Made by a program: the position numbers and the translations under genes | In this document: positions 9,754 through 63,300 of the stretch, in pieces | How the letters are laid out: each line of letters begins with the position of its first letter | Position numbering within the stretch: position 1 is the stretch's first letter | The notes under the pieces: model-generated | Database searches by the model: none | What the model saw: only the letters and a program-made list of their open reading frames with translations | What the model was told of the DNA's origin: nothing | Assembly (NCBI GenBank): GCA_963969365.1 | Contig: OZ017748.1 | Location: forward strand, 3,159,001 to 3,223,000 | From: Asterochloris sp. CNOR1 | Lineage: Eukaryota; Chlorophyta; Trebouxiophyceae; Trebouxiales; Trebouxiaceae | Reading direction: 5' to 3' | DNA: 64,000 bases

Positions 9754-12700
9754 TTATTGTTTTGTCCTTCCAACTTTATTGCTGAACTCGTGAACATTGA
9801 ACTCCTCAGTGTACTGATCTTCGTCCCACAGGTCTTGAAGGCCTTCCAACACTGATCTTGTGCTGCCCTTGTTGCCTGGTTTGGTCGCCACTTTACCTGT
9901 ACAGAAGCACACTCACCAGGTGGTTCAGCAGCTCATGCAGGATGGTGCACACTATGGCCCGTCACACAGGGACGCAGCCAGCAATGTGCTGTGTGCAGCT
10001 TCTGCAGCTAGCTGCACGTCAAGTAGTAGTTGCTCTTGTGGGGACGCACCTGCAATTGCTGAGTCACCAGCATCATGGCGCTGCACACCCCCAGGCTTCA
10101 AGAACAAGTCCAGCAGGCGCCCCTTGTCCATGCTCTGCATGCTCATGTTTTCCTGGTTGACAACAGTGCCGGCCACATCCAGCTTGAACTGCTGCAGACT
10201 CATTATCTTCTCCTCCAGGGTGTTGCGGGTCAGAATGCGATACACGTTGACTGTACGCTTCTGGCCGAGGCGATGTGCTCTGTCCATGGCCTGCAGGCAA
10301 CAGGGACGGCACTGACAGCAGGAAGCTTGAGCAGAAACTGGGTGCCAAGGCTGGCCTGAGATGTATGTCTTGGTTCAATGATCTGGGCTGTTGGCTGATT
10401 AGTAGGTGATGCACAGCAGCACTGCGCCGACCCATCTGTAGGTTCAAGTAGGGCTGCCAGGTATGCAACATGATGGGCAGCATTCAAAGTTACCTGAAGG
10501 TCCCTCTGAGGATTCCAATCATGCTCCAGGAAGATGACTGTGTCAGCCGCAGTCAGGTTGAGGCCCAGCCCGCCCACGTGTGTGGTCAGCAACATGACCT
10601 CTATGGTGGGGTCGCTGTTGAAACGCTGCACCAGGGCAAAGCGCTGTGATGCCTGGACACTGCAGGCAGTGAACCAGTGGCTCAGCAGGCGCACTGCAGC
10701 CAGCACAAGAGCATCTGGGGAAAGAGCTTATTGCTGTGATGCCTGGATGCTGCAGGCAGCTGGTAAGGGGCTGACGAGGCACACTCTGACCAGTAGCTAT
10801 GTCTGGAGTTGGTCTCCAGCACTGCTTCCAAGAGAAGCCTGGATGTTACAGGCTATGAGACATGCAGACCATGCAGTCAGATTGACCAGGAGGCGAATTA
10901 TAGCCAGTGACAGAGATCTGGGTCTTTGTTGAAGTGCTGGACTAGGGCAGCCTGCTGGGGGGCGTTGGCTGCTGCAGGCAGTTGGAGGGTGCCTCAGCAG
11001 GCACACTGGGCTTAGGGCTAGAGTGTTAGGCTGCTGACAAAGCGCTGCACCCAGGAGCAGCAATGGGACGTCTCGACTCTGCAGGCAATTCAATTGAGCA
11101 GGGCACTGCAGCCAGGCTGGCCAGCAGGCGCACTGCGGCCAGTGGTAGTGGTTCCGCTCCTTGTTGAAGCGCTGCATCAGGGCTGCTGTGAGGCCTGGAC
11201 ACAAGCAAAGGCAGGATGGTCCACCTCCCATGCTTGCCCGGCGGGGGTGTTGTGAGTTCCTGCTGAAGGCAATGCAGCAGCTCAGAAATGCATCATGAAG
11301 GTGACTGCTGTCGCCCCCAGCAGCAGGCTACCAGTGGTCCACGCCCAGCCTGTGTGTGCGCAGGCTGGCAGTGTTTCAGTGGGCCAACTTCACATGCTGC
11401 AACTGCTGCGGTGTCTCACCTGCCGTCCAGGCGCAGGTATGTGATACCCTGCGCCTGCAGCACGTCTGCCTCGACAATATCCAGCAGGCTGCGCAGCTGG
11501 GCAAACACCAGCACGCGGTGGGGCGGCCCCGTGTCGCCACCAGAGCTGGCTGAGCTACCACCGTCGCCGTTGCCAATGCCGCAGGCCTGCAGCAGCAGGG
11601 GCAGGCAGTGACCAGCCAGAGCTTTGCAACGGGAAGGCACCCTGCCTGAAAGCCAGAACGCCCCATCTGTGCATGGGCATGCCGAACACGGCTTGAGATA
11701 TCGTTTCAGGTGCACATTTCCAGGGCTGAGCATCATGTGGCCAAAGCCAGCTCCCGACAGTGCAGCAAGCTGAGCCTTCAAAGAGGCCAACAGGTCTGCA
11801 GGTCTGCTCTGCTTCTGCCGTGCAAGCAAACAAGGCAGATGCACAGGGTGCACAGCAGCAAGTGGCCCAGGCTGGCGCTTCTGACTGGCGTAGCTGTGAA
11901 ATCTAGAGACACACACTCAGTACCCCACCAGTCACCTGCAGCAGCTGCTGGAGGGCCTCCAGCTTGGGAGCATGGTGCAGCTGGCTGCGCACTGCTGCCA
12001 CACGGGCCTCCCAGGTGGCGGCGTCTTCCTCAGTGGCTGCCCCGGTGGCTGCATTCAAAGCCGCAACGTGTGCGGGCTGCTGAGGGTCCAGCACCAGAGC
12101 AGGGTGGCTGCACAGCTTGCGCATGTACTGCAGGGCCTGCAGGCAGGGGAGTGGGTGCACACCAGGCTCCGCATACCGTGCCAACTTTGAGGCAGAGCAC
12201 CCACCGGAGGAGACCTGCACATCCCGTGCACATGCTGTAGGGTCTGCAAGGCAGGGGACAGGTCTCAAGCAGATCTGCCGGATCCTGCACCGCCCCAGCC
12301 TGCACAGCTGCCCAGAAAGACGTGTGTCCTTGTGCTCACCCGCAATACGCTCGATGTCAGCCCCAGAGTTGCCTGCACAAACCACCCTGCTGTGCCCAAC
12401 CCCAGCACCTACCTGAAACACGTGCGGGGCTTTGTCGGCGGTGTCCTGCACTGCCCCCGTCTGCGCGAGGGCGCCAGCAGCTGCCTGGGCGGCTGTCCCC
12501 TGGCCAAAGGTGTCCAGCAGGGCGGCCTGCAGGGGCGAGGGGCTGACCAGCACGTCCTGCAGGATCTTGGGCGGCAGCTCCTTGAGCACTGCGTCCTTGG
12601 TGCGCCGCAGGATGAAGGGCATTACCTTCAGCAGGCGGCGGAATCTCAGCAAGGGTCCAGCCCCGGTGCAGCTGCGTTTTTCATGCAGTGCTTAAGCCCA

Positions 12701-15700
12701 GAATCCATGCAAGAGGTATGAAGTTCACCTTTGCTGCTGTGATGCAAGGCAGAGCTGGGTATGGGCACTCTGCCAGCAGCTGAGCTGGCAGGCCACAGCA
12801 AAAGATAATGCTGCACCTTGATGCAGGTGGGGCAGGACCAACAGCGGGGAGGCCCTGCACACACTGAGCCCACACAGCCCGCAAAGCTGGCCCGTGCAAG
12901 CTGCTACCTACCTGTGGGGCCACTGTGCCATGCATTTGCTGCTTGAGCCAGCGCAGCATGCAGAGCTTGCTGGCGCTCCACTCACCTGCTTGTGCAGGCC
13001 CTCCATGGCCAGCAGCCCTGCCTGAGCCTCTTGTGAGCCACGTCCTGCTGCCCGCGCTGATCGCAGCGCCTTCCCAAACTTTGCATTGAAGGCAGCCTCA
13101 TCCCCGAGGAATCCTGCTAGTCACCAACATGTATGTAGTGAAGCATGGGTAGGAGTGCACATCTTCTGCCACACACTCAAGGCCCTCCCTTGTGGGATCT
13201 CTGAGGTGGGCAGTGCTCCCACAAGACCCCGCCACTCTTGCAGGGATCAAGTCAGCCAGCCAATTGCAGGTGGACACGGAGAATGTGCCGCTGACGTGTG
13301 CTGCAGTGTCTCAGATCCAGCAGGACTTCTTCACCTGGCATGAGGAAGTCAAACAGGGCCCACAGCTCCAGAACATCATTTTGGATGGGCGTCCCACTCA
13401 GCAGAAGGCGGTGCTGCGCACGGATGCTCTTGCATGCCTGCAAGCGGGGGTTGCACCCTCAGACTGGCAGCTGGCCCAGGTGCCTGCAAAGTGTCTGGGA
13501 CTGGCAGGCTGCAGGTCTTCACCTCCCAGTAAGGGGTGGGGTACATGACATGCTGGCGACTCAGGGAGAGAGAAGTTTGTGACGCAGTCATGCAGGCTGT
13601 CACTCAGCCAGAGGGCAGGTGAGGGTGCCCCTGGCCACCCCGTCCTGCATTCCTTAAAGCAGCTGCGCAGCCCCAGTTTCTGCTGCTGTACCATCCTGAC
13701 ATTGAAACTTCCCAAGTCCCCTTTGCTGGGGGGGACTTTCAAGCGGGCCCAGCGCATCCACCTCAAGCTTGAGGCTGGTGGTACCTGTGCCAGGCATCAC
13801 ACTTGCGGCCCCATCTGAGCTGCCTTCAGCCTGGGGCAACCGGTAAAGTGCCAGATCACATCGAATGTTTAAGGCCCTACCTGAGCCACCTTGGACTTGG
13901 GGCTGCGGATCATATGCCCCTCATCCAGCACACAGTAGTCCCAGGAGCGAGCTGCCACCCACTGCACATCTGAGCGCAGCACCTGCAGGCGAGATAATAA
14001 CCCTAGCAGCTGTTGCAAAGCAAAGGTGAGCCGCCACCCACTGCCCATCTGAGCGCAGCACCTGCAGGTGAAAGCGCCCAAGCAACTTGTGCTATTGCGG
14101 GCTTTTTAGCGTGCTTGTTTTGCACAGCACGGGGTCATCACCATCCAGCAGCTGTTGCAATGCGCAAGCAAGTCTCCAAAGGTGAGCAGCCACCCACTAC
14201 AGATCTGGGCGCAGCACCTGCAGGGCACAGTGCTGGAGGCCAAGTCGGAATTCAAGCCTTGGTGCCCCCAAAGCCAGTACAGGTTCAGAGAGAACATTTG
14301 CAATGCAAGAGGGCAACTATACGCCACACAACACGCCAGTGGTCGCCTGCGTGTCACATTTTGGAGACAGGTCCCTCCTGGAGCTATATAGCTTGTTGGC
14401 AGACAGGTGCAAGCCAGCTGCAGACTGCTCACCTTGCACCCTCAAATCAGTGCATTGTGAGAAGCCATCAGCCGGCGCCCAGCGTACCCTGCGGGCAGCT
14501 CACCTCATACCCTAAGACCAGCACATTGTGGGACGCCATCAGGGGCTGCAGGGCAGCCCGCTCCCCAGGGTTCCCCTGGTACTGCAGCGGCTGCAGGAGG
14601 TCGGGGCTTACAAACTTGGAAACCTCGTGGACCCAGTGCCCCACCAGGATGGAGGGGCACACAATGACCGAGGGCTGTGGGGGGCGCCCGCCTGCGCGCT
14701 GCTCTGCCACAGAGGCTGCAGGGCAGGGTGTATCTGCAGTGGCTGCAGGCCATGGAGGAGGGACATGCAACAACAGAGCCGCTGTGGGAGGCGCTTGATT
14801 GCACATTGCACTGCCAGCACTGCTGACAGAGCATGTCTGCATCATGCTATGAGCAGGTCATGCAGGAAGACACAGAGCAGCAGGAGGTGTCAGAGGCTGC
14901 GATGCAGAGTGCATTGGCACTCATGCCCTGTGTTGACCATGCAGAGGAGGGAGGGACACATGCTCTGCTGCGGGGTTCGACATCTGCACGCTGCTCTGTC
15001 ACAGAGGCTGCAAGGCAGAGTGTGTTGGCAACAGATGCTTGAAGCAGGCCATGCAGGAAGGACACATGAGGATACAGGGCTGGCTGCATGTTGCTCTGCC
15101 TCAGAGGCTGTGAGCCAGCTCAGATCAATATTGCTGTGGTTGCCTCAAAGTGCCTTGCAGATGAGAGGGGGGTACATGTATGGCACAGGCTTTGTGATTG
15201 CGTGCAACATGGCAGCAAGCTGTGGGGGCCATTCTGTAGGAATGCCTTGCCGGCCAGGTGAGGAAGCCAAGGCATGCAATGGAGGCCAGGTGAGCAGATG
15301 GCGGGTAATGCCATACAGAAGAGGCACTAGGTGCAGGCGCTTGGCAGCACGGTGTGCAGGGTGTGCTGTGCAGAGGTGGCTTGTGCAGCACACGAAAGAG
15401 GCATGCAGCTCAAGGTTGTCAGCAGGTGCCGTGGATGTCACATCTGACAACCAGCCCAGCAGAAACAACAGAAGCAGTGAGCACACCTGCAATGATGGCA
15501 GTCGCCTGCAGCGTCTTGCCCAAGCCCATATCCTGCACCAGTGTGCAATAGGCTGTCATGCCAGAATGCGGATGCAGAGAGTAATTTGCCAGCATCTCCT
15601 ATGTTGAGTCACCGATCAGCATGCAATCAGTGGGACAATGGACAGGCCGATTCTGACCTGCCTGCATGGGTGCTGCCTGTCGGTGCAGACGCAGGCTTTA

Positions 15701-18700
15701 ATCTGAAGCTTTTCACATCTGGACGCGGCCGCAGGCAGCCTCTGCTGCACCCACATCAGGCAGCTGGCATAACCAGAGTGAGGTTGATCCCAGTCTGCTT
15801 GAGTTTCTTTGCGTGCACAGAGGTGCAGGTGACTCACATCTGCCAGGCAGCCATGCAGCCCTGTGCGTTTCAGGAACGCCAGCCAGCTAATGCCCTCCCT
15901 CTGATATGCCCTCAGGTCGCACTTCAGCTTGATGGGCAGCTCATATGCATCAGCCTGTACAGCAGGCACATTGTCATTGGTGAATGCCAATCTCTGTGCC
16001 GTGACATGCTCCTACTTTGCTGCAGGGAAGGCACAAGCCTGCTGCCCTACTGGAAGCACAGGGCTGGAGTCCACAGCGCTCGTGTGCTGCAGCGACGTGC
16101 ACACGCAGTGGGACAGACGGGCACATTCTGTGTCTGGCTGCTTTTGCAGCCGGCAGCGACAGTACAGCTCTCAGCAAGGCAGAGCTTGGGGCAGCCAGGC
16201 ATTACAGATATTGTCTGTGACAGGCGGCAATCAGTGGTGGTGCCATGTGATGCCCTGCTTACCTTGCTGTTGTTGATGAGCTGCTGCAGCAGGGCCCTGT
16301 CATGCTGCCAGGCCTGCTGCTGAGCTGTGTCCAAGCCTGGGGGCATGGGCGTGCCCTGCGCCAGCGGCAGCAGGGCCACAGCTGCTGCGAAGCAGGCGGT
16401 TGCCTGCTCCCGAACTGCAGGTACGGTTACATTGCTTAGACTGCATTGAAGACTGGAAGAGGCTGCATCATGGTGACTGAATACAGGCAGCAACGTATAC
16501 AGCAGGTACAAGTCAGAACAAGTTGGGGACAGACACCCTTCGCCTGGTGTCGTCGGGGGACAGTCACCAGCATTGGCATGTAGGCTAGACAGGTCGCAGG
16601 GGGCGAGGGAACCCAGTGCTGCAAAGCCAGGTGGGGTGTTGGCAGCTCTTGAGCTGACCTGCAGAGTCAGGATCAGACATGCGCCCCAGGAGGGGCACAG
16701 CCAGCAGCAGCATGTAGGGGACCAGGCGGACAGACAGCTGCTGCACCCAGGCCGCCGCAGCAGCTGCAGCGCCGCGTCGAGCGCTGTCCTGGGCACCCCC
16801 ATGCAGCATGGGGAGAACATGCCTGCAAGCCGGGCAGACAGGCCGCTACATCACGCCTGACTTCAGGCACGTGCGCTTTGCGGCCACAGGGCCTGCTGCT
16901 GTACAGGGCCTGAACTTGAAGTGAGCCCCTCGGGACGCCACACTACAGACTCAAATCCGGGACAGGGCATGTGGGTCTCCCTGGACGCACAGGTGCAACA
17001 TGACATGCGCTCGACAACACCGGCCCACCACCTCAGCATCTCAGGCATCACAGCACCTGGCATGCAAGTCACAGGCTTTGCAACCCCAACAGACTTGAGC
17101 ACATGGGTGCAAAAAGGACATCTGCTTTTGGGTCTTGCACCCAATCAAGGGTCACAAGGAATTGGAAAAGGGCTAGTGCAGCAACAAAGTCCACTCGGCA
17201 AAGCTGGCCCCTCACCTCAGTATCTCAGGCATCAAAGCCTCCAGGTGGGCCTCTGCCAGGGTGGCCAGGCAGGCCGCAGCTGCCTGGGAAACCCCTGCCC
17301 CTGCATGGGACAGGCACCTGCACATGTTGGGCAGCAGCTGCTGCAGGCTGCCCAGCAGCGCGGGGTGCAGCCTGGGCCCCAGGATCCGCAGCAGCTGCAG
17401 AGCTTCTGCCAGCTGCTGGGGCTGCGCTGTGGTTGCCTGCTGCAGCGGTGCCAGCAGCAGCTCTTGCAGCTTGGGCAGTGAGGTGAAGAGGGCAGGGCCC
17501 AGCACGGCAGCCATGCGGCCAAACGCGACCTCAGCTCCCTGCAGAGGCAGTGGGATGGGTGCCTCAGCAAAGGTGGGACCGATCTGCTGGCACAAGAGGG
17601 GCTGAGTGTGGCTTCCCTGAAAGATGCACAATACGCCGGAATGCTGCCCATGTCAGCATCAGGAAGCACAGCCCAGCAACAGGCACTTGGGACGCTCGTG
17701 TGATTTGTCAAGGAGAGCAGCAAGTCATGTATGCTCCACGGACTGCACTGACCTGTCGAGCAAGGCTGGCAGCGGACTCCTGCGGCGGCTCGCCATCAGG
17801 GGTCTTGCTGGCTGCAGGGGACTGAGGGGTGGGCTGCAAGTCGCTGCAAGCCATGACAGCCATGTTCCTCACCAGCCTGCAGGGGGCCCCGGGTTGGTGA
17901 GCTGTATTTGAAGCTGTTGCAAAACAGGAGGTCAGCTGCTGGCCCACAGGTCTTCACAACAGCAGTGGCCTGACTGACTGCCACAATGCAGCGAGAGAGT
18001 GTAGTCCCTGCGATCAAGCATCTGTCAAAGCACACAAATTGTGCCCTTGTATCCCTGCAGGCTAGGGGCCCAGCAATCTACTTAAGAGAAGCCTCACTTG
18101 TCATTTGGGCAAGGCTTGCGCGCAATGCAGAGTGCCACCAGTTGTGCAGTAGCTGTGCCCGCTACGTCCCGCAGCTGCGCATGCCTGGAAGTTCGAACAC
18201 CGGCCATGAGAGGCTGGATGACTGCGTTCAACTTGCTGGGCAGCATGCCAGTGGCCACAGTAGCAGCAGCCAGCGCCAGGGTGGCCTGCAACACGCATCA
18301 GACAGACACCCTTCAGCCTGAGGCAGGATGCCTCAACACTTGGCAAGGAAGAACAGCGGTTAGAGCTCATATGCATCACAGCTGCCCATGCATCTGGGGA
18401 GCAGTGTACTGTGGAGCAGTAAGCAGCCAACAAGTCTCAGCTGGACTCAGCAGGGAGAGCACACCTGTCTCCTTAGATATTGCAGCATCAGCACAGACAG
18501 CTTGCTGTCAGGCAGTCAGTCAGTCAACAGACGACCACCCGGCTAGTCGTGCCAGAGAGTGCAGGAGTGTCTGTGTGGCACCCAAGCAGGAGTGCACACG
18601 CCTCCGTGTCAGCCAAGCAGCACAACTGACCTGTGAGTGCAGGTATGTCTCTGTAGAGACCGCATCACTGGCACTGGCAGCCAGCTGCTGCAGCGCTGCA

Positions 18701-21700
18701 GCAGCAGCAGGCATTGTGGCTGCGGAAGCGATGCTCTGCGCCAAAGCAAGAGCCTGCTGCGCAGTGAGGGCCTGCGGCGCCACTGCAGGCAGCTGTGGGC
18801 AGCCTGGGAAGGCCAGACACAGTGCTGCCACATGTCCATGCATGACACTGTAGAGGAGGGCCAGTTCTGTGTATGGCTGCACAGCTCCTTGCGCGTCGAC
18901 CATGACAGGCCCTGCGGCAAGGGAGGTCAGCACTGCCTGCAGCATGGCCAGACAGCGCTGAACTCATCAGCTGTCACAGCCTCCCTGCAGTGGAGGCTGG
19001 TATTGCTGGCAGCACTAGCAGACAAGCATTAGAAGGCAGGTAGGGCACCGCTGGAGAGTGCTCCCGGGCACCCAAGTGCGCAGCGTATGCAGCAAGCGAG
19101 GCTATTTCGAGGGAGCACCCCCAAGCGGGGCTAAAACAGACACTGCAATTGCGTCTAAAATGACCAGCAATGTCAATAGATATGAAGGGCATAGGCTGCA
19201 AGTCAGCATCTCTCACGCTCGGGCCAAGACAGCATCATTACCTGCTTACCTGTTGAAGGTCTGCTGGAAGGGGAGCAGGAGCCTGATCTGCAGCTGGCCC
19301 TTTCGCAGCCTCCACCCAGGCACAGATGGTGAGCCCTGCCAGAAGGCGTCCAGTGGCTGCTGATCCAATGGCGTGCTGGTGTAGCAGGGCTGGCATGACA
19401 TCGCAGGCGCCTGTACAAACATGAGCCATGCTGATTTGGTCAATGCCTGGGGTGCTGCATTGCTGCTGGCTGCTCATGGCAGGCAACACAATCATCAAGG
19501 AGCTGCACTGGGCAAGAAGCTGCCATCTGGAGTTGTGTGTTTCCCCACTGAGGCAACATGCAAAGCAAGTTCTGTAGTTCTGAAAGAGCTACTCAGCAGA
19601 CGTCAGTGCAATGGCATGCCGATACAAACAGGATAATATCTGCCAGCTGACAACCCTTTTACGCGCAGGAGGGCGATGACCAAGTGCAAAGTCGCTCATT
19701 GGTGGGGCAATCGGCTCATGATCACAGCTATTCTGCCCTGCCGGCATGCAGAAGAGAAAGCAATCAGTTTAGCGCCAGGGCTGCTGCGCCCACCTGTGTG
19801 CATGAGGACCGCTGCCAGCTGCCCCACCGCCTGGGCAGCCGCGATGCGCATGCGTGGGACATCTTCCTGCCCCTCCCCGCCCAGAACAGGAGGCACCAGT
19901 CCAGTGACTGCACTACCATCCTTCGCCATGGAAGCCTGCTCAGGCGAGGGGATGTGCAGCATGATCCCTGCGTCATAGGCCTGCCCCTCGGGCGTGCTGG
20001 CCAGCTGAAACAGCTGAGCTGCAGCCTCCAGGGGCAGGCTTTCTGCGAGGATTGCAGGCGGGGCGGACCGCAGCAGGGTAGCCCAGGCTGACTGCGTCGC
20101 AGCCAGAACCTTGAGGCTTGCATCCAGGAGCAGATTCTGGAACAACAGGCGCAGCGCCGTTGTGCAGAGGGCAGGGGTCAGCCACTGCGCTGGCTGCCCT
20201 TGCTGGGTCAGCAGGGACTGCAGGCACTCCAGCACGCAGACCCGGACCTTGGTGACTGCATGGCGCAAAAAGGGCCAGAGGCGCGGCAGCATGGCGGCTA
20301 CGTCTGTGGGAGCGCCACCGGAGACAGGGAGGTGCCTCAGCAGCTGCATGATGCTTCCTGCAGGCACAGCACAGGCTTGATTGTGTGGCAGACACCCAGA
20401 TTGTGGGGTCGATTGCAGGCAGGCTGCAGAGATGTGTGCCATCTGGGCACAGGAACCCGGTTCTAGTGAAGGAAGGCAAGAAGCAGTATGCATTGCCTCT
20501 CTGGGCAGGTGTGTGGCTGACCTGGGAAGCCATTGCAGTGCTTAGTGGGGAGTCACATGGCTAATGGTGCAAAACAGGGCAGCCATGAGCTAAGGCCACT
20601 GCCAGATGCGTTGTTGACCTGTGGAGGGGCTGAGGTCCTCCACCTCCAGTAGCATGTCCCACAGCTGCTGGCGCAGCTGCGCCAGCAGCTCTGCAGATGC
20701 TGAAGCCAAAGGGCCTGAGATGGGGATGAGCGCCTCAGCTGCCACCGCCCTGACATCATCATTGGGGTCCTGCATAGAAGTCACAGCAGCAAAGTTGAGG
20801 GAGGTGCCACCTCGGGCTTCCTTCCCGGCAGGCTTGGCTCGGACGCAGAGGCAGTGCATTGCTGCTGCCCATTTTGCGCAGCCTGTGGTAGCACAGCATC
20901 AGACGTGCTGTCTGCTCCAATGCACACTTCACCTCTGACCCTGAGCTCGTGAGCACTCCAGTGGTGTTGGAGCGAGTGAGGGCGGCTGACGTGGCGGCTG
21001 GGGGGCCAGATTCTGCCCTGGCAGGGGTGATGTCTCCAGCATGACTCACCTTCAGACCAAGCAGGGCGGCTGGCAGAGCCTCAGGCAGCAGCTGGGGCCC
21101 CAGGTCTGCCCGGGCAGCCAGCAGGTACTTCAGGCCCAGCAGCCCGCCATGACGCACGTCCCACTGCTTCTGGTCAACAAGCTGGCGCACCTGCAAAGGG
21201 AGGCTGCTGTTGCTGTTAGGTGCAACACGTGCTGCCTCCAGCACAGGTAAGATACGTATACAGGCTGCATCACTGTGATCTGCAGTCTGCATCTACAGTG
21301 CAACCCAGGCATGGCATGTTTGACTTCAGCTGTGCATTGCAGAGGACTATTGCGGGCTGCAGGGCCCTAAGGCATGGCTGCCTTCATGCAGCATGCAGCC
21401 TTCCCATGCTGATGCTGCATAACACAGGCTGTGGAGCCTTGAGGCATGGCCTAATGCAGCACGCACTTCAGCCTGCTTGAAGAGCACTGCAGCCAGCTGC
21501 TTGAACATCAGACAGCATGTGCAGTGGGGGGCGCCCAGGACAAATGCAACATAGCATTTGCTGGGTTGTGAAGCAAGCCCTTGGTCCATAGCTCACCACG
21601 CGGAGCACTTGCAGGACCTGTCCAGGCGACATGCCTGTGGCCCCTGCCCCCAGTGCCTGCGCTGCCGTCTCTCTCACAGGGGCCACCACCTGCAGATCCA

Positions 21701-47200: not shown

Positions 47201-50200
47201 CAGCAGCCTTCCGTGACTGTACCGTCAGGAGGCAGAGCTGAAAGGTCAGTATGGTTGTGGCAGTGCCGGAGCTGCTGCACATGGCATCACTGTCTCAGAC
47301 CAGACTGCTGAGGCCCTCTCAAGGTGCCGTACTTTGGGAGTAGTGATGTACATCACTTTTGATCTGCAAGTGGGCACCATCTAAGACAGAACATGCACGC
47401 AGTCACCCTGAGAATTGCATTTTGTCTGCAGGCACCGACACTCGGCGTGGCATCAGCACATCTGCCATCTGTAAGTTGCCTTCGTTCTGCAGGCATGCAC
47501 GTCAAGCCTGGTCACAAGGTCGCTGCTGCACCTGCGAGCAAGGTGGGCAAGCGCGGCAAGGCAGCCACTGGCAAGGCAAAGCAGAAAACAGCTGCCAAGC
47601 TCAGCGCCAATGATGATGCGCCGCCGGACTCCAGAAAGCGCAAGGCACCTGCTACGGCTGCAGCTGCAGGGGATGACGGTCTCACTCCCGGCAAAAGGCA
47701 ACGCTCAAAGATGGATGCCAGGTAGCTGCTGTGTGGCCTGCTCCTTTGTTGCTTTTTTGGGGATGAGCTTTCACCGCATGCACCTTGTGCTGCGTCGTCG
47801 AAGTGCGGCGTCTTTATAGTGATCGTTGTTGGCACACTCCCTGGAAGTAGAGCCCTGGCTTTCCTTGGATGCTGATCAGCCTGCACTCAGCAATCTCAAG
47901 CCAGATGTCCTGCTGACTGCCACGTTCTGCCCAACCAGACAAAGCCTCACGTCAATGTCTGCATGCAGCATCGCAGTCGTCCTGTTTTCTGTTTTGAGCA
48001 AGTGCGGCAATGCGACACCCCACAAAGCATTGATGTCCACGTCTGCCTACCAGACACAGATATCCATGCCTGTGCTGCCTGCAGGCTTGCCTCTAGCAAT
48101 GTCGGCGATATGGCCTGCAGGCAGCACGCAAACCCTGAACTGCATGCCTGCCCAACACATATTTGTCAATGCCCATCCTGCCTGCAACCCCCCACTCGTC
48201 CTGATGTTGGCAAGTTTGGGGATGTGACCAGCGTGCGGCCTGCAAAGCATTTCTCCATGCCTGCCAACACACACAGAGATCTCTGCCTGTCCTGCCTGCA
48301 GCGCGACACGCGTGCTGTTTGCCACCAACGTGGGCGACGCAGTGAAGAGGCGGCTGAGCACGGTGGTGGGGGACCTGGGGGGGCGGGTCGTTGCCCATGA
48401 CGACCACACGTTCACCCACTATGTGAGATGCGCAGCCCTGCATGTTCCCCGGCCTGCATGCCGTTTTGCGGCGGCCCTGCATATGCCTTGAGACATCCTG
48501 CGGGCGAGACACACCTTGCACAGATTTGGAGCCAACCCTGAGCTAGCTGTATTAGCTGTGTTTGTGCTGCGACCTCATCTTGCATCAAGTCAGCCCTGTG
48601 TCTGGCTAGTGACAGTCTTTGCATGTGCTGTGAGCAGCCATATCGCCATCCCTGCATGTCCTTTGAGCTATCCTGCACTTCGGCTGTACACTGGCTTTGA
48701 CATGATCTTGCCTGTGGTCTGTGGCAGCCAGAAGGCAAATCGACTCTGCACCTGCTGCAGCGTCTTGCCTGTGTGCATGCCCTGCATGCCCTCAATGCTG
48801 GCACTACGTGGGAGCAGCTAGGGGCTTCCCTGCTGGCCAAATAGTGCATGAGTTTCAGCAGGTTCTGCTGTTGATGACAGGCCTGAGCAACTTGATCTGT
48901 TGCGCAGATTCATTGTCCTAACATGCGGTTCTGCCTGTCCGCAGATCAGCAAGTATGGCTCTGGATTCGTGAAGAGCTTCAATATCCTACTGGCACTGGC
49001 TGCGGGTGAGCACTGGTCACAGCACTGAGCCTCCCAGCATGCCTGTCATGATCCAGGACACCAGAGGCAGCTTGCTGCCGGCAAGGCTGGCAGGAATGCG
49101 CTTGCCTGCATGTGCAGAGCAAGTTTCTCCACGCAGCTGATGCAGTCTTATTCGAGATCAGTATTTACGTGGACAGTGGCAGCCGTCTGCCTGCAGCAAG
49201 GCACCTGCCCCTCTGAGAGCTGAAGGGTTGAGCTGCGTGCAGGGCGGCCCATTGTGACAGAGACGTGGCTGGAGGCGTCCAAGCTTCATGGAAGCTTTGC
49301 GCCTGTACGGGACCACCTGCTGCAGGACAAGAAGGTTGAGAAGAAACTGGGATTTGACATGACTTCCAGCTGGGAGGCTGCACAGGCGGGCCTGCTGCTT
49401 GCGGGGCAGCAGGTCTTCTTCACCCCAGGTGGGCCTGCCTGCAGCATCAACACAACAATGCTGGGCTTTGGCATGACATGGGCTAGCAGGCCCGCCGCTG
49501 GTGGGGCGGCAGGACCCCTTAACATCAGGTGGGCCTGCCATCGTCTGCAAGACGCATGGCTTTGACTTGTAGGTGGCTGCGCTGTGCAGGCAGGCCTGCT
49601 GCTGGCGAGGTAACCTGCCTTTCTCACCTCGAGTTGGGAAGAGCTTTCCTGTTCCTTGGCACATGCAAGCTGTGCACTCTTCCTTAATGCTGGAGGCCGC
49701 GCAGGCAGGGCTGCTGCTTGCTGTGCAGCAGTCTTGTGGGTAGGCTTCTTGCCCTCCGTCCCAGCTCATGCAGGACAGCAAGCAACTTGAACATCTGCAT
49801 GTTGCAGTTTTGTCTTTGCAGGAGCTCGCCACCCTGTATATCTGCTGGTCTGCTGCCTCCTCATCATGGTCATTGCTGTCTGGCTGCCCTCGAAGAGCAG
49901 AGAAGCATCTGGACACTCCCAGAGGGCGCTGCCTCTTAGTGTCAATGCTGTGTGCCTGCCTGTGCAGGAACAAAAATCCGCCTAGACCCTTGTAGAGTGA
50001 GGAAGCTGTACTGCTTCTGTATCTGCTACTGCTGTGCGCCTACCTGTGCAAGGCTGACAAGCCCTCCGACATCTCCCAGATGAGGAAGCTGCTTGTGATT
50101 GATCATTGCTTCCTGCCTGTGCAGAGGCGGAGAAGCGCCCAGACATCTCTCAAATGAGGAAGCTGGCTGAGGCAGCTGGCGCCAATGTGTCCAAGCAGCC

Positions 50201-50540: not shown

Positions 50541-50603
50541 ATCACGTGGTGCCTCCCCGAGCACTCATGCATTCCCATTGAGGTTTCAGGACAGCACTGA
50601 TTT

Positions 50604-53600
50604 TCAAAGATCCTGCCTGAACGTAGGGCTCTGCAGCTGTCTCAAATGCATGGAAGATTTTGACACTGTGTGTTTCAGATGATCTCTCAAAAGCAGCGCA
50701 GCATTCTTGCCAGCAATGGCACTCATCTCCATGGCAGACGCTGCATTCTCCCAGGCATTGCAGTACAGCAGTCCAGCAGTAAGCTTGAATGCAGCAAATT
50801 TCTCCGGTGGATTGAAGTGTGGATAGGCCAGCCAATCATGCTCTGTGATGACTTTGTGTCCCTCAAACACCACAGCCAGTTGGTCCTGGGACAGTGGCAG
50901 CTTTGAGAACAGCTTGAAAAGAGTTGTGTTGCCCAAGGTCTTGATTGGTGAAATGACACTGTAAAAGGTATTCGCATCCTCAGTTGTCATGATGGCCCCT
51001 GCACAGACGCTCAGTTGTATATCCAGGACAAGAGCTCAAACAGCACCAAGTTTCGACGCGCAGGCAGGGGCGCTAGGCCACGCAAGGACCCACCCTGGGG
51101 CATCTCAGACTCGCCGAAAGCAGAGGGGCGCAGCGTGCCTCTCACGTATGTTGTCACAGTCCTCTGGTATTTCCTGGCAGGCAGCTGGGGAAGTGTATGA
51201 CCCTGGAAGGACAGGTTTGCCTGCTCCAAAGGGGTGGCAATCACAACGGCATCAAAGGGCCCAGCAGTCTCCTGCAGGGCAACCATAGCTGTCAAAGATA
51301 TATGCTTTGCCCAGTGCTGCATTGCAGCACACGCCCTGTGGCAATTGGCACAGTGAATCCCTCTGAGCCCTTTGCTGAGCCATTGATCAGAGGCATTCAG
51401 TGAGGGTAGGCCCCAGGTGCGACTGGGGGCAACACGTGCCAGCAGGCAGGGCACACCTTTCTCTCCTGGCTGGCTGCTGATGACCCCGCGAACTGCAGCT
51501 GCCACTTGCCACTGCTGAGGCGATTCACTGAGGTGACCTGCGCTGCGTGGTGCAGAGTGGCGCTCGCATTCTTGAGCAGCGCCTGCAGGAAGAGGGACAC
51601 AAGTGACAGTGGGCAACCCCCAGCATCACAACCCTCCATGCCAGCTGGCAGCATGCAGATCACTCAGCACGCAGCACATGCAGTGCGTCGTCACACTGAC
51701 GTCAAGCACTACAGCTTTGCAAGCAGGTGGCAGAAAGCATAGACGCCAGCTGATCCAGGGCAAGAGCAGCTGATGACCTGTTGCAGCAGCATGTTTCCTC
51801 CATTGATCAGTGGGCAGCACACTGACCTGTGGCAACAGCATGTTGCCCCCCTTGATCTTGAAAAGCCTGCCATCCACGGTTGGCAGCATGGAGACCAGCC
51901 CTGTGCACAGGCAGCAGCCTCTCACCAGTGAACAGCTTTGCATGGGGGGGCAGGGGGCAGGATACAAGGATGCTCTGCTGGCTGCCATGCGGTGCCCAGT
52001 GACGCGACAGCATGCTGTGCTGCGACCGGCTGTTGCATACAAGCAGCACAGGAGAAGGAGCTTGGTGCTCGCCTGCAAGAGAGTTCAGCAGATTGCCTTG
52101 ATTGTAGTTCACGCGGTTCACGGCTGCCACCAGCTCCCTCCCAAAGCGCAGGGAGACCTCGTCAGTGCCCAGGAAGTCCTGCACTGCACACGAGTCATGG
52201 ACAGCTTGCTACACTGGCCGTTCTTCAGCGTGAATGCTGCAGCTAAGCTAGGCTGGTGTTGTATGCTGTCCTGACCATAGAGACAATCTGGGCACGCATG
52301 ACAATACATGTGTGCGTAGACGTTGACAAAAGTGTGGGCCTCTTCTGCAGCCAGGCATGTCTCTGGCCAACATGGCAGCTCACCGCAATGAAAGACTGCA
52401 TGATCTGCATGGAGTAAAACAGGTCTGCGTGCTGCAAAAGGTGTGCTGCACGGGCAACAGCAGGCCACTGCGGTCAGGACCATGTGAACCTAAAGGGGGG
52501 GGGTGGGGGGGGGGGTCACCTCAATGAATGACTGCATGGTCTGCTGAGTGGAGTCGTACAGGTCCACGTGCTGCAGCAAAGCCTGGGGGGTCTCAAAAGC
52601 GATGCCCTGCTTCTGCAGGTCGTAGATGTGGAGGAAGCGCTTGAGCATGGAGGCTGGGGCTCCCCTGAAGCTGCACCAGCGCAGTGGATTGAATTGATAT
52701 GGACATCTTAAGAGTGCAGCAAGCGTTTGGGCAGGAGGTAGGGGCTACCCTAAACCTGCAAAAGTGGGGTCCCTGAGGGTAACAACTTGGCAGGTGTGGG
52801 GGAGGCATGGGAGGATGGAGGGCTGCCAAGAGTTTGAGTGGTGTGAACATGATTGACTAAGCCAGGGCAAGCGGCTAGTCAGAGCGCAGTCCTAGTTGGG
52901 TGCGGCAGGGCTTGTTATGCTGTCAGCAGGGATGACAGGAGGACAGCTGGGGCCATGCAGATGAGCAGCTCCTGCCTGCATGCAATGTTGAATGGCCATG
53001 AGCTCCCCACTGCTCCGATTGAAGGAGCTAACCACGCTACCGCCGCGTATGGAGAAAAGTGTGTTGGTACAGTAAAGAATTTGACCTAATAGAACGCTAT
53101 AGCTCGGCTCAGCAGCTCTTGCCTGAAGTGGGCTGAAGCCCCAATGGTGCAGTGCAGAAGAGAGTGTGGCACAGCCACAGCCCTGTCCTGCTGCTCCTGT
53201 TACCTGAAGTAGCTGAGGCCCCAGCGGCGCACCATGCGCAGCAGGGTCACAACGCTCCAGGGCGACTGCTTGAAGACTATCTGGGTGCCATCATATATGT
53301 TGAATCCGTCCTCCGACTGAGGAGCCACCCGCTGCAGCCCCATGGCATCTGCAAGGTCCCTGCATGGGGACGGGGCAGATCCTTGAACACAGTAGATTTC
53401 CCAGTCACCATGTTCTGCTGTCCCCTGACTGTGGGGGGGCCCCGCTGCAGCGTCATGGCACCTGTCAAGTTCCTGCAGACCAGCATGGAGACTGACAGCA
53501 GCGTGAGGGCATCCCTGCTTCAGCTGCCAGGTCCCTGCAGTTGGGCTTAGTAACTGGCAGCTACTTGTTGCTGGCGTGGCCCTCCAGTACTTCAACACAG

Positions 53601-54758: not shown

Positions 54759-57700
54759 ATGACTGAGGAGATTGACAAAGCAGTTTTTAGGAAGTATGAG
54801 ATCCAGACAAAGCTTGGGAAAGGGGTGAGTGGCCTACACTGCTGCGCTGGCGGGTTTTGTGGCGCAGCAGCCAATTCTTTCGGTGCCCTTTGTCTCTGAA
54901 GACAGCGAGTGCTACGGCAGCAAGCTCTTGCAGTGCTTCTATCCCTGTTGAGAGCCGGACATCAGACAAAAATCATCTGGTACAGGCGTATGGCATTGTT
55001 TGGAAGGCCATTGACAAGAAGACGCGGGAGGTCATTGCTCTCAAGAAGATATTTGATGCATTCCAGAATGACACAGATGCTCAGGTGAGTGTGCAGGACG
55101 CCTGCTGGCAGCCCAGAAAGGCAAGATGCGGGTATTGCCAGGCTGAGTGGCAGTCAGCACACCACTCCCCAAAAGCGAGGTGCCTGCTGTGCAAGGCAGG
55201 GTGGCTGTCAGTGGCCCATGGCAAGCTGGGGTACCTGACAGCAGTTCCTTAGTGAGGTGACTGCTGTGCTGAGCAGGCTAGCTGTTTGTAACCCCAAAGA
55301 ACTGGCCACTTCTGCCGGGTATATGCTTGCATCGCTGACTGCCAGCAGCCTTAGGACCTAAGCAAAGTGGCCGTGCACTGCCTGCAGAGAACTTTCAGGG
55401 AGATCATGTTTCTTCAGGAGCTTGTCAACCACGAGAACATCATCAAGTAAGAGCTTCACAGTTGCACAGGTGCCTTGCATGCCTAGTCCTCAATCGCATG
55501 CCACCAATGCCGGTGCCTGATGGGCCAAGCACACTGGGTAACATGTAGCTGCTTGCCCCACAGGCCTGTTGCATACTATGTTCAGAGCTGAGGCTAGGAG
55601 CCAGCTCAGCCTCACTTGCTGCATCCTGCAGCTTAGCCAACAGGGAGCAGGACCACCCACTTTGGGTGCTGGCATGCTGCTGAAATGTGTCAGCATCACA
55701 AGCACAGCTGTGCCTGCCTTTCAGGCTGCTGCCTGTCTTTGACGTCAACACCGCCAGCCGCCTCTCACCTATTGCACCCTGGCCCACAGGCTGTTGAACG
55801 TGATCAAGGCTGAGAATGACAAGGACATTTACCTTGTGTTTGACTACATGGAGACAGACCTGCACGCAGTGATCCGGGCCAACATCCTGGAGGAGATACA
55901 CAAGCAATACATCATGTACCAGTTGTTCAAGGCACTCAAGTACATGCACAGCGCCCATTTGCTACACAGGGACATCAAGGTCAGCCGTATGCTGCACAGA
56001 AAGGCTTTGATCTGCTCAGGACCATGCACAGCACTTGAGTTGCCCCACAAGAAAGGCCATCACAGGTCTGGTGCAACAATCAGTACCAGGGCCTGCTACA
56101 TACCACTGCCACTGGTGCACATCTGCTGCTCAGCTGCACATATGGCTGCTGACAACGCCAGCCTGGCCAGCAATTTGGTTTGCTGCAGTGACTGTGGACG
56201 CCTGCAGCATGTAGGCAATTGGTGAAACGGCGCAGGGCCTCTGCTGCCCTGCAGCCCAGCAAAGGTCCTGCTGAGCAATCCTCCATTGGCCTGCAGTCTA
56301 GCAGCTGAACCCCCTTGCCCTGCCCTGCAGCTTTCAGCTTCCTGCTGAACAGCGGATGCATGGCAGGACTCCGCTCTCTGGCCTTCAAGGGTCAAGCTGG
56401 CCCCTGAACACCCTTTCCCCTGCCCTGCCCTGCAGCCCAGCAACCTCCTGCTGAACAGCGAGTGCATGGTGAAGCTGGCAGACTTTGGGCTGGCTCGCTC
56501 AGTGGCGCAGCTGCAGATGGGGGAGGGGCCCAGCCCCATACTGACGGACTATGTGGCCACACGGTGGTACCGGGCGCCTGAGCTCCTGATGGGGTCAAGG
56601 AAGTACACCTTTGGAGTGGACATGTGGTCCAGTGGTGAGTGCTCTTGGTGTGCACCCACTCCAGGCATGCCTCAGCGCTGAAAGCCTGGTGGGCACCTGC
56701 AGATGTCATTGCGCAGCCCTCACTCTTCTTCTTTAGTGGATTTTGCTAAGGACAGCCGTCAAGAGCCGCCAGGCATTCCCCGTGCGGGAAGCCATGTGTC
56801 TGCCAGAGCTCTAGGCTGTGCACCTGCCCACCGCACACTCAGCTGCAGTGCTCTGGCAGCTAGCAGTTTCTCTCTGGGTCGGCTGCTGCTTACATTCCTG
56901 CTGCTCACCTCCCATGCGGGCTGCATACCTGGGGACTTCGTGGTCACTTTTGGGCTGCTCATCTGGGCCGCTGTTGATGCAGGCTGCATGCTCATGGCAG
57001 CTGATGGTCACCTCCGTGCTGCTCACCCAGACTGCTGCAGGTTGCATGCTTTTGCTCAGCTGCTGATATATGCTTGCTGCTCACCTGAACCGCTGCCCCT
57101 GCAGGCTGCATACTTGGGGAGCTGCTGTGCGGGAAGCCCATCTTCCCAGGCAACTCCACCATGAACCAGTTGGACCGCATCATGGAGGCCACAGGTCAGT
57201 CCAGCCCCTGCCTGGAGCAGGTGCATGGCTCCAGCCAGCCAGGTCTCAGTCGCTGATGTGGCAGTAGGCAGCCGGAGGGATGGCAGCTCGCCAGTATGCA
57301 GAGTTGCTCCTGTGCAAGTCCATATGCAGCGAGGCAGTGCCAGGCTGATGGCTCAGCTCATGATTTGCTTGAGCAGCTGCAGCACATATCAAAGGGGCAG
57401 CCAATGGCCCTTTGGGGATGGGCTCCCTCAGCAGTCAGCTACCAGCCACCTGGTATTTGGTCTCACCTAAGCGTGCTCTGCAGTCAGCAGAGGCATTGTG
57501 TTCTGGAGAACACCTGGCCGAAACTGCTTTAGGAGGTAACACAAAGTAACAAGGCTGTACACACTCGCTGGCTCCTCTGGCCTGCAGCATGCCCTTTCAG
57601 CAAGGGCTGGACTGTGTTTCAGCAAGATCAGGCCCTCTGCGGCTGCATCAACACTTCTGTTAGGCTGCAGAGCGCCTCACAAAAGACATCATGACACAGT

Positions 57701-58758: not shown

Positions 58759-60252
58759 CTAGAGCCGCATTCGCTTCCTTGGTCTTGTTTGAAGGATCTT
58801 TCCCTGGCTCTCAAGCTGCTGAAACGCCATGCGGTAGTGTGAGGGCTGCAGCCGGCCATCCTGGCTGATCTCATTCAGCTCATGGCCTATCTGACGTGCT
58901 GCACATCAACAGCTGACGTTCCAGTCAACCAGAGGTGCAGGGCAGCTAAGGATGCCTGACATGCAAGAGATACACTGAAGCACACCTGTCTCCACAAGGT
59001 CTCCCACAAAGAGCTTCACCACAGCGCCCATGACGATGAGCATCTGGTCATTGCATTTTGAGCCAGCCACAGCCTCCATCACCTGAAGCAGCAGGCACAG
59101 CTTCCTTTCACTATGCCAGCTTGCCAAGCAGACACTTGCCCATGCAGCTTCCCCAGGGACAGGCTTTGCTGTTTGGGCCACTGTGCCCCAGCAGCCCTGC
59201 CACCTGCCCTTCTCAGGGCTGCCCTTGAGTCATGTGAACATGCAGACATATTCACATGCGACAGTGTTCCACAGTCTCCTCAGTGACTGCCATTACAATG
59301 AATCACTAGTGCCGACAGATGTCAAGGCAACCCCGTGCCCAAGCAGCAAAATTCAGTAGTTGAGGACTGCCTCCAAGTGACACCATCCCACGGATTGGCT
59401 CAAGCAGACCGGCCACGCACCCTTTTCAGGACTGCCTTGGACAGCTTGGAGCGGCGAAATAACTCGTACCGATCCAGCTCCTCCTGTGACATGATGCCCA
59501 TGACTTGCCTGCAGCACAGGCAGAGCAAGGATCGGCAAGAGCTCCCCTGCATGGGCTCCCATGTGCCTCCCCCTGCTTGAATGCCTGTCAATTCCTGCAG
59601 GGCATTCAGGGCCAGATGAGCGGAGTTGTGATGCCCATGACTTCATTGCAGTGCAGTCAGGCAGCACAGATGGGCAGAGACCTCACCATGCATGAGTTGA
59701 CTTCAGCAAAATCAGGGCAGCACAGATGGGCAATGTAGAAGGCTGCATTGCATGAGCACCCCTTTGCAATTACAGCGGGCACAGCCCCCTGCCAAGCAGT
59801 TGTCACTGCATGAGCCAGCAGCTGCGGCATAGCAGCACAGACATCCCCTGCATAAAGCAGCAGTCAGGCATCTTACGCAGTGTACTCTGCCAGCGCCAAC
59901 TGCTGAGGTGTCTTATCGGAGGCAGAGGGCACCACAGCCAGCTGTGCCTGCTCTGCCTGCTCATCTCCACCTGCAGAGTCACAGGCACTCAGACGACCTG
60001 CATGCATCTTTGCTGAAGCCCATCTTCGAGATGCTGTGGCACACCTTGCTCCTCCTCTTCAGATAGATCCTGCTCATTGTCTGAGGCAAACATAGCTGCC
60101 TCAAGGGCTGCATCATCCTCGTCACCATCTAGCTCTGAGCTTGCACTGCCAGACTGGCCAGGCTCCACACTGTTGTCCTTGTCACTGTGATCTATGTCTG
60201 CCTGCAGTTGCTGGGCTGGACTGAGGTCTTGTGAGGACCTCATGCTTGTCAT
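58759..60252 (-). CDS. TAF11: TFIID subunit TAF11 (histone fold)
   Basis: Five minus-strand exons join in phase: 60045-60252, 59877-59970, 59421-59508, 58986-59082 and 58759-58898, about 208 residues. The N-terminal third is acidic (SSELDGDEDDAALEAAMFAS, DLSEEEEQ). The histone-fold domain has the TAF11 signature: MSQEELDRYELFRRSKLSKA at its start, MLIVMGAVVKLFVGDLVETA as the central helix, RQIGHELNEI, and the C-terminal DGRLQPSHYRMAFQQLESQG. The tail RPRKRMRL is basic. TAF11 pairs with TAF13 and contacts TBP and TFIIA within TFIID. The canonical helix-1/loop region (EAVAGSKCNDQ) has no insert. The start could be Met1 or Met4. It converges on MAPK15 (117 bp) and diverges from the last gene (88 bp). 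Confidence 0.93.
59490..59730 (-). repeat. Echoes of the TAF11 exon 3 acceptor edge
   Basis: The real edge (plus strand 59490-59520) reads gatgcccatgacttgcctgc and agcacaggcagag. A copy at about 59628-59675 reads gatgcccatgacttcattgc and agcacagatgggcag. A third at 59692-59730 keeps gttgacttcagcaaa and gcagcacagatgggca. In transcript order the real acceptor is the last one. Confidence 0.85.
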
Positions 60253-60340: not shown

Positions 60341-63300
60341 ATGAAGGAGGCTACCGCTGTCAATGGTGTTAGAAAGCGCAAGACCAGATGGGGTGCTGAT
60401 GTGACTGTTGCCCAGCCTCCTGCTGCTGGTGAGGGTGCAGGGCCCCCTGCTGGAGGTGCTGAAGGTGAAGCCAAGCGTCCCAAGCTGAATGCCAAGCCTG
60501 ATAGCATCCAGGCTTTGCCTCAGGTAAATGCCTCCACCATCGAAGCTCAGAGGCAGGGCAATGGAGCTGCAGCGGAGATCCAGACAGGTCCTGCAGACAT
60601 GCAGCAGAGCAATGGGCCAGACCAGCGCCCGAGGTGAGCCCCTCTGGCTGAGAGAGACCCACATGAAGATGATGGTCTGCGCTCCCAGCCACCAGCCATC
60701 ATAGCTGTCAAGCAACACAACTACTAAAGTTGGCGCCCTCCTGTGTGCAGGCAGCAGCCTTCCCCTGCCAGCGTCGGGCCCGCACTGGGCAGTGCACTGG
60801 CCGCAGCCCGGGCTGTGGCAGCTGGCCTTTCGGGCCTCGCTCCACCCCCGCAAAGCTCTGCATCTCCTGCTCACCCTGCTGGTGGACTGGCTGCTCAGCC
60901 AGCAGCAGCAGCAGAGGCCACCCCTGCTGACACCGCACCCACAGCATCGCTGCCAACTCAACTGGCCAGCGGCAGCAGAATTGCCACTGCTGCGCCAGGA
61001 GGCAGGGAGCCCGCCAGCCTGCCGCCCCCACCCTTCAGGCCTGCCCCCAAGCCGCATGTGCTCTCAGCCAGCTCTTTCCAGACGCCAGCCCAGCTCGCCG
61101 TGGCTCAGGAGGCTGTCAAGATTGCGCAGGAGGCCGCTGCTGCCCATGCTGCCATGCTGGCACAGCAGCGAGCAGCTGAGTCAGGCAAGGCTGCTCCAAC
61201 AGATGCTAGCACCGCCATGACGCAGCCCACAAGCGCAGCCGTGGAGAGGGTGTCCCAGGCAGGGTGAGCAGGCTGCTGCCATCACTTGTCAGAATGCCTG
61301 CTTCTGATAGGTATGGGGAGTGGCAATGGCAGAGCTCATGTCTCAGGGTGCACTTGCTGTGGAGCAGATGTCACATGCAGGTCAAGAGAGTTCATTAGCA
61401 AAGGGCATAACAAGGTGGTGCCGTTATGTGGCTGACTGTTGGCTGCTACTTATTTGGCCTGCTCAGTTCACGCTGCCCTGAGTCCCTGCTGATTTCCATG
61501 GTGCCAGACATGGCGAATCTGTGCTTAAGATGTCATGCGTAGCCCCCCCCCCCCATCTTCAACTTGTCAATTTTGTTATTGCCTGAACAGCAGCATGACT
61601 TGTTTCAAGACACATGACATGTCCCCTCAGCAGCCAGATCAGTAGCTAAACACTGCTGGGGCAGGTATTATCTGCGGCTGCTGATCTCAGCAGGTGCTCT
61701 CGCTGGCGCCAGTGGTCGTTCAGCATGACATATGGCTACACACCATAGAACTCAGTCAGTCACCTCTGTTCATCACACTGCTGTGCAGGGCCCAGTTGCA
61801 AAAGAGCCAGGCAGGGGAAGCCCATGTCGCAGACATGCCAGCAGCCTTCGACTACACTGCTGCCCTGTCAAGAGCTCTGCCCCCGTCAGGTCCCTGCAAG
61901 CTGTACATCCCTTCTGCCATTGCAGTGGACTAGTCTGCCGCGCCGCATTTGTATGCAGGCGGCGCCGCCAGTGGGCTGAGCCAGAACCCGCATGCTTCTG
62001 CATCTGGTCTGCTTGTGTTCATAAGCTGGGTTTTACACGTGTTAATCTTGCTTGGCGCATTTTGTCAGCTTGTTTGTGACAAGCTGACCTGCCTCAGCTA
62101 GATACATGTCAGTCCAGTGGGCTTGTGGGCCTATGTTCAGCTCAAGGGCTTCAGCAGAGCTGGTCTCTGGTGGGCTTGTAAGGTCGGCGCAGGGTTTCCT
62201 CAGATAAGCTGCTTTGCATGCAGATCTGGTGGCCCCCGGCACAACTGAGGATCCAGGAGCTCCCGGCGAGGCAGCTGCAGCCCAGGCACAGGCGTACTCA
62301 GCTGCCTACTCCCACGCAGGCAGCTATGGGTACAGCAGCTGGTATGGGGCCTATGCAGGGCAGCCCATGCCAGACCTGGGAGCCTCAGCGGCATTGGCAG
62401 CGCCTGCAGTGGGCGCTGCTGAGGAGCCCCCTGCCCCGGGGATGGAGGGAGCAGAGCCGCTGCCACCAGGTAGGGCGGCACATCTAGTGCTGCCGCTGTC
62501 GCTGCATGGGTGCAGTGCTGAAAGACTAGAGCGGCTGCCGAGTGAGGCCTGTGGCACATGGATGGAAAGGCAGAGCTGCAGCCACCAGGTAGGACAGCTC
62601 TGGCTGCTGTGCTGTGTTGATGCCCTGCTGCAGGACCACCACTGCTGCTAAGAGGACCCCAGGCAAGAGGGGACAGGCCTCCCCCTGCCAGATTGTAAAG
62701 CAAAATCCGCTGTCACTGCTGGAGGAGGTGTACAGGCTGTATGCATAATGCAGCAGGGCAGTGAGGCAGGCACAGACCCAAGAGTACAAGTAAATGCAAG
62801 GGCTCACTTCAGCTGCCCATTTGCTGCAGGCATGGGCAGATATGCAGCAGCCACCCTGCTCATGCTGCTGCTGAGGGCCTACAGCAGTTTGATCGCAGCA
62901 GCTTTGCTCAAGCGTAGCTGCCACCGGTGCTGCAGGCGAGGATGACGCTGCAGCCTCAGCCGCTGCTGAGGCTGCTGCCCTGGCCTGGCAGCAGGCTGGG
63001 TACGATTACTCTGCTTATGGAGCCTACGCAGCCTGGCCAGGCTATGAGGGGTATGAGGGCATGTATGGCTACCAGGGCTACTATGACCCAGCTGCCTATG
63101 CGCAGTATGCGGCTGCCTCTGGCGCTGAGGCAGCCCCAGCAGCAGCAGGCACAGATGCGGCAGCCCCAGCGGAGTCCCAGGCTGGAGCGGAGGCGGACCA
63201 GGAGGACACCAAGTCACATCCACAGGCGGCGCAGAGTTTGGCAGAGGGTGGCCCGGCAGTGCAGGGTGGGGACGGCAGCGGCAACTTGGCGGCAGAGGCA

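Follow-up and report, generated by a model that had tools for sequence, protein, structure and literature searches.

Tandem duplication within genes is an established source of introns, as set out in passages of PMC3443670 and PMC2891723. In the potato RNA-dependent RNA polymerase gene, one event of tandem duplication across an intron-exon boundary gave rise to a new intron together with inserted exonic sequence, according to the relevant passages of PMC4974935. Among green algae, the core-Reinhardtinia combine long introns with compact, intron-rich genomes, and the passages of PMC8226300 devoted to them leave the driver of intron length open. Here, we analyze a 64-kb window (the whole stretch of DNA under study, positions 3159001-3223000 of contig C3) of the green alga Asterochloris sp. 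CNOR1, in which introns hold diverged copies, hereafter echoes, of the adjoining exon-intron junction. Short stretches around exon edges are duplicated into the neighbouring intron, leaving a real trace of intron lengthening by a known kind of mutation.

The echoes resemble the described systems in some respects and differ from them in others. As in the potato gene, at least in the part of PMC4974935 that describes it, the duplicated unit crosses a junction and the splicing signals are inherited from the parent junction; here, however, the inner copies are absorbed into an existing intron, in 50 of the 340 introns of at least 180 bp. Intron gain by tandem duplication of an AGGT segment, as outlined in the passages dealing with it, likewise involves a direct tandem copy within a gene that is neutralised by splicing (predicted splicing in our case), whereas no new intron position is seen with the echoes, and shift and intron length differ in every listed pair of the window, as judged by eye. 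The core-Reinhardtinia genomes are compact and intron-rich, as is ours, but lack a peak of short introns, in contrast with the peak of predicted introns here at 60-100 bp, and duplicates of this kind are not mentioned in the passages of PMC8226300. None of the literature matches listed describes such echoes as a pattern found generally in an algal genome. More generally, short and close direct repeats, or paired duplications, are in excess at short distances in eukaryote genomes; unlike these, the duplicates of our sample lie in introns and, in frame, in coding sequence, and are absent from intergenic DNA.

The sample comprised the window, 200 kb of contig C1, and 10 kb each of C9, C13, and C17, that is 294 kb on five contigs out of a 56.4-Mb genome in 21 contigs (~0.5%); 8 kb of C14 (C14:310501-318500, L025) were added later for paralogue comparison. 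All splice sites and introns are predictions made from sequence by a two-strand hidden Markov model gene finder trained on the sample itself. It returned 81 complete genes, each with a coding sequence of at least 300 bp, and 709 introns flanked by exons on both ends (median 173 bp, commonest size 60-100 bp, plus a long tail), and learned a very strong splice consensus (donor CAG/GTGAGC, acceptor CTGCAG/G, the slash marking the splice site). The gene models are backed by alignment to Mot1, MAPK, TAF11, and prenylcysteine lyase, BTAF1 being a single model of 40 exons (9754-24268). Two flaws were noted: some echoes are still called as tiny exons, and the MAPK model has residues 23-50 and ~357-369 missing from its homologue, which is unconnected with the echoes. 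The exon-edge test (545 acceptors, 540 donors) used introns of at least 70 bp and exons of at least 40 bp, the junction-centred test introns of at least 150 bp and exons of at least 50 bp (302 of 709 retained), and the splice-dinucleotide test introns of at least 90 bp and exons of at least 40 bp (418 retained). The comparison of intron and intergenic densities and the 340-intron test were run on introns and intergenic segments of at least 180 bp, and the flank tests on introns of at least 120 bp with exons of at least 50 or 60 bp (345 and 328 retained), both on the contigs other than C13, as was the scan of direct-repeat distances. Low-complexity pairs were removed from the pair counts of placement and orientation.

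The presence of echoes, first reported from inspection of the window, is confirmed against unrelated introns, introns of the same gene, and reversed introns. The window contains 21 cases of exact direct 14-mers spaced by 60-120 bp, versus ~0.2 expected from the rate at 500-4000 bp, and the direct-repeat excess is limited to short distances, fading beyond a few hundred bases. For exon-edge probes devoid of the splice site, own-intron matches reach p<=0.005 at 14 of 545 acceptors and 20 of 540 donors (2.7 expected each), as compared with 2/504 and 0/502 for non-adjacent introns of the same gene and 4/545 and 2/540 for the own intron reversed. Junction-centred probes are significant at the same threshold for 13 acceptors and 15 donors out of 302 each (1.5 expected each, the nulls being the same position in other introns). 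Among the 340 introns of at least 180 bp, 29 acceptors and 26 donors are echoed in their own intron (p<=0.005, 1.7 expected each), the 50 introns cited above carrying at least one junction echo; this junction test finds more than the exon-only test and also admits introns adjoining very short predicted exons, a number of these exons being miscalled echoes. A background of chance matches could be suspected, given the strong acceptor consensus and the frequency of TGCAG or its complement in introns (21 per kb versus 8 in intergenic DNA). However, the other-intron nulls keep this motif, yet unrelated introns match far less often, own-intron matches being 9 to 17 times higher, and the probes lacking a splice site show the excess too, making shared motif and TGCAG-rich composition a highly improbable origin.

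Even less credible are mobile introners or dispersed repeats, for which no supporting point was found: similarity fades beyond a few hundred bases, and each of three echo-bearing introns tested is single-copy in the 56-Mb genome (in a search skipping very common words), matching only itself, whereas the same introner sequence recurs in many introns. The spacing of about 50-120 bp initially proposed is too narrow, the shifts filling the whole searched range of 25-300 bp with a median of 113 bp. Likewise, the genome-wide mode of intron growth put forward in the first-pass annotation is not supported as stated, resting as it does on 0.5% of the genome; per contig, the exon-edge test at p<=0.01 returned 0/25 on either side for C17, 1/20 on each side for C9, and 0/3 and 0/2 for C13.

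Each of the six genes singled out in the window (BTAF1, an MDC1-like gene, prenylcysteine oxidase, MAPK, TAF11, and the last gene) holds at least one echo, TAF11 being the weakest case. Their 23 junctions, picked because the introns had already been flagged, were each compared with 200 unrelated intron stretches, the best score reaching P<=0.01 in 13 and P<=0.05 in 18. The echoes are as follows, those given as aligned being supported by alignment and null test.

10660-11419, minus strand: BTAF1/Mot1 intron with four acceptor-junction echoes (10733-10759, 10920-10982, 11030-11087, 11162-11214), scores 23-30 versus a null maximum of 19 among 200
14028-14071, minus strand: BTAF1 acceptor echo (source 13949-13992, shift 79), 93% identity
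14184-14224, minus strand: second echo of the BTAF1 acceptor 13949-13992 (shift 235), 90% identity to the exon copy
14427-14478, minus strand: BTAF1 donor echo (source 14498-14549) in intron 13983-14503, score 28, 0 of 200 nulls as high
14984-15030, minus strand: BTAF1 acceptor echo (source 14692-14738) in intron 14716-15486, intron best score 39
17010-17054, minus strand: BTAF1 donor echo (source 17194-17238, shift 184) in intron 16823-17215, flanks dissimilar past 20 bp
49736-50124, plus strand: intron of the MDC1-like gene with three acceptor echoes (shifts of ~73, 157, and 229 bp), best score 35, P 0.005
51774-51808, minus strand: prenylcysteine oxidase donor echo (source 51823-51857), aligned
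52371-52440, minus strand: prenylcysteine oxidase donor echo (source 52507-52576), score 37, a 21-nt exon being called inside it by the gene finder
52730-52770, minus strand: prenylcysteine oxidase acceptor echo (source 52645-52685) in intron 52671-53203, aligned
56330-56371, plus strand: MAPK acceptor echo (source 56436-56477) in intron 55980-56435, aligned
56635-57104, plus strand: MAPK intron with four acceptor echoes, null mean 0.92, count P 0.005, best single score P 0.015
59185-59229, minus strand: TAF11 donor echo (source 59398-59442) in intron 59083-59420, single echo, score 18, P 0.005
62563-62603, plus strand: last-gene donor echo (source 62444-62484), score 32, a 7-nt exon being called inside it by the gene finder

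Homologues run without insertion over the echo-bearing junctions of MAPK (both acceptors), TAF11, and BTAF1. Across BTAF1 10660-11419, the predicted protein had 43 extra residues of intron sequence, one echo included, while the Mot1 chain runs from 1699 to 1700 with no residue missing. Inside the echo 14028-14071, the segment 14038-14061 is called as a 24-nt exon, and the Mot1 alignment is ungapped at intron 13983-14503 once the 8 residues of the echo are left out of the query. Echoes explain some spurious tiny exons in the BTAF1, prenylcysteine oxidase, and last-gene models. The two echoes of acceptor 13949-13992 are 84% identical to each other, the three copies diverging additively. The best echo score of intron 13983-14503 is 38; those of prenylcysteine oxidase reach 28 for the acceptor and 37 and 27 for the donors, and the acceptor echo of the last gene scores 24. 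Five junctions are not significant against the 200 unrelated stretches: MDC1-like 39212 (P 0.41) and 40661 (P 0.055), the TAF11 acceptor (P 0.53), the BTAF1 10660 donor (P 0.96), and the prenylcysteine oxidase 52179 acceptor (P 0.975). The MDC1-like name is not confirmed, Pfam giving no family for two pieces tested, nor did it report any for one piece of the last gene. Mini- and microsatellite arrays were considered and rejected, Tandem Repeats Finder reporting 10 arrays in the window, none of them over the echoes listed above; the two long ones (28522, 29975) are exonic.

How such copies arise is best accounted for, with a probability of about 0.7, by short segments being duplicated directly, largely in tandem, inside genes, the inner junction copies then decaying into echoes. 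Most shifts would be below 200 bp. When the unit spans a splice junction, use of the outermost donor or acceptor would suffice to keep the messenger intact, and selection would tolerate the duplication for that reason; the inner copy would turn into intron sequence and erode, presumably neutrally, by substitutions and indels. Inside exons, almost all survivors would have shifts in multiples of three. Arrays may duplicate again, the intron growing further, and some share of intron length may have been gained in this way; duplicate density appears to rise weakly across three intron length classes (14/710, 53/2021, and 53/1755 probes). The duplication is direct and local. Strong pairs number 71 direct versus 0 inverted (191 versus 16 at a lower threshold), and outside exon-exon pairs, the similarity covers at least 0.8 of the shift in 37 of 71 (38 in another count), versus 11.6 expected on the assumption that only the 30-bp core is related. 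Reading frame is preserved in exons, where shifts are divisible by three in 26 of 28 exon-exon pairs, as compared with 17 of 54 within introns. Among the freshest units, two (C1 112562, 79 bp, and C1 129777, 25 bp) are complete tandem copies, followed at the edge by what reads by eye as a partial third copy; slippage between short repeats would produce such a pattern, and slippage or microhomology may be the cause more widely. The aligned parts of the echo copies hold at most 60 bp of exon, the probe itself having held no more; a possible copy of a complete exon, at C1 124178, is a likely exception. In the same region (C1:1124093-1124507, sample 124093-124507), neighbouring exons and introns resemble a diverged exon-intron repeat array with shifts of 110 and 223.

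Break repair with locally templated insertions of 20-60 bp (filler DNA, end joining) could instead have made most echoes. In its favour, some echoes are sharp patches that lack contiguous extension even at high identity, examples being C1 95882 (33 bp at 94% identity with a shift of 91) and, in BTAF1, the donor echo shifted by 184. Templated insertions are, however, expected in both orientations, at odds with the complete absence of inverted copies among the strong pairs, and the contiguity seen in 37 of 71 also counts against them, so that this origin is unlikely for the bulk of the echoes. As regards the repeated tandem duplication originally proposed, the local direct duplication stands, with a tandem arrangement in half or more of the strong cases, but many echoes are devoid of a full contiguous unit; tandem origin is thus shown only in part, about half of the strong pairs being non-contiguous.

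A three-copy gene family provides one polarised event. It consists of a tandem gene pair (24940-30782 and 31163-36857, 76-79% identical) and a third copy on the C14 segment.

33085-33130, minus strand: 46-bp intron insertion, a tandem copy of the adjacent 55 bp, missing from the two paralogues

The second gene copy lacks ~570 bp present in the other two. The pair also contains exonic tandem repeats of 54 and 63 bp at 28522-28731 and 29975-30140, the former exceeding its counterpart in the neighbouring paralogue by 108 bp. The segment 24400-24960, located downstream of the gene whose end is at 24940, matches C14 at 76% and the 31.3 kb region at 71%, and probably belongs to the duplicated block.

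The first-pass annotation also stated that acceptor echoes always lie upstream of the true acceptor and donor echoes downstream of the true donor, only the outermost copy keeping the exon continuous. In a side scan of 29,100 probes with chance set at 1%, probes at most 20 bp from an acceptor find an upstream match in 5.7% of cases and a downstream one in 1.1-1.5%, and donor probes match downstream in 5.5 and 3.8% and upstream in 2.3 and 1.5%. Intron-side echoes are therefore 2 to 5 times as frequent as exon-side ones, and the two sides are not equally populated. Echoes thus lie mainly on the intron side, but the rule is no independent law, since the intron is always upstream of an acceptor and downstream of a donor, and the protein stays the same with the outer copy alone; geometry predicts it. 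Away from the junction, the rate falls to 4 to 8 significant probes out of 288-302 at 40-80 bp into the intron, to 3 of 302 for a probe 20 bp inside the acceptor, and to 1/258 (acceptor side) and 3/259 (donor side) at 60 bp into the exon. The junction rate is therefore about twice the intron-interior rate. Counted as pairs, 79 touch a junction versus 54 inside introns; the ratio is thus 1.5, as compared with 1.0 to 1.5 for 80-110 bp units placed uniformly; random placement of short match windows inflated the junction excess, whole-unit placement being the fairer null. Junctions are not strongly special as duplication sites.

Several observations weigh against duplication in tandem followed by decay. 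Among the 71 strong pairs, 23 cover less than half of their shift. For 36 echo junctions detected with a 40-bp probe, the 20-bp windows that flank the probe are close to background on either side (exon 0.451, intron 0.438, null 0.421). Gapped flanks reach the 0.05 level in just 4/16 exon and 3/16 intron cases for scores of at least 18, and in 5/43 and 5/43 for scores of at least 14. Either the copies are eroded fast by indels, or some echoes are short templated insertions. Of the four polarised insertions of at least 12 bp among the paralogues, only one is a tandem copy. The twofold junction excess would be explained if the exon part decayed more slowly, yet the exon part is not better kept than the intron part in the 36 echo junctions (Wilcoxon p=0.35), the three-copy BTAF1 set (93, 90, and 84%) alone fitting that expectation. 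Lastly, intergenic DNA shows no excess of duplicates, with 8 of 2068 probes (10 expected, 0.5%) versus 120 of 4486 in introns, under class-matched nulls and equal opportunity, neighbouring probes not being independent and the intergenic sample comprising 52 segments; uniform neutral duplication does not predict this absence. Intergenic-intergenic pairs number 1 versus 13.6 expected under random placement.

Constraint acting on compact promoters and on untranslated regions could underlie the intergenic absence, as could sequence composition or an intron-bound process. Introns exceed intergenic DNA only 1.8-fold in their supply of microhomology, measured as the 8-mer collision rate, a difference that seems too small to explain that absence. 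A process tied to introns or to splicing, e.g. a transcription-linked duplication, that copies junctions preferentially would fit the lack of intergenic excess, the roughly twofold rate of junction over interior probes, and the denser interior duplicates in introns with a junction echo (44/1098 probes versus 31/2007 in those without). Nevertheless, introns without a junction echo are still at about three times chance for interior duplicates, the junction share is near the geometric expectation, and in-frame exon duplications occur too, so that preferential junction copying is less probable still than templated repair. The broader proposal, that some process connected with transcription, splicing, or the intron sequence confines short direct duplication in this genome to genes, above all introns, is doubtful, albeit slightly more plausible than either of these two. 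The pattern is real and, its intron-only distribution apart, is largely explained by a known kind of mutation.

Regarding the echoes as a reservoir of cryptic splice sites, among those spanning the splice dinucleotide 6 of 10 at acceptors and 14 of 18 at donors retain it intact, near the identity of the neighbouring bases. There is no clear sign among these 28 echoes that splice sites are purged or kept. To judge from their sequence, the echo sites are a passive supply of predicted near-sites. Elsewhere in the window, the last exon (9068-9663) of the gene 7938-9663 has a translation carrying an HPD motif and resembling a J domain, and the predicted membrane protein at 5138-7499 presumably resembles the DedA/TVP38 kind.

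Through the echoes, the origin of intron length can be tested with nothing but sequence, exon edges serving as references by which faded copies can be recognised. They point to a neutral way for genes to lengthen their introns with their proteins unchanged. They also raise the question of why introns, and not intergenic DNA, accumulate such copies. If duplication were indeed restricted to genes, it would represent a continuing engine lengthening introns from their own junctions, and might bear on the unusually long introns of some green algae.

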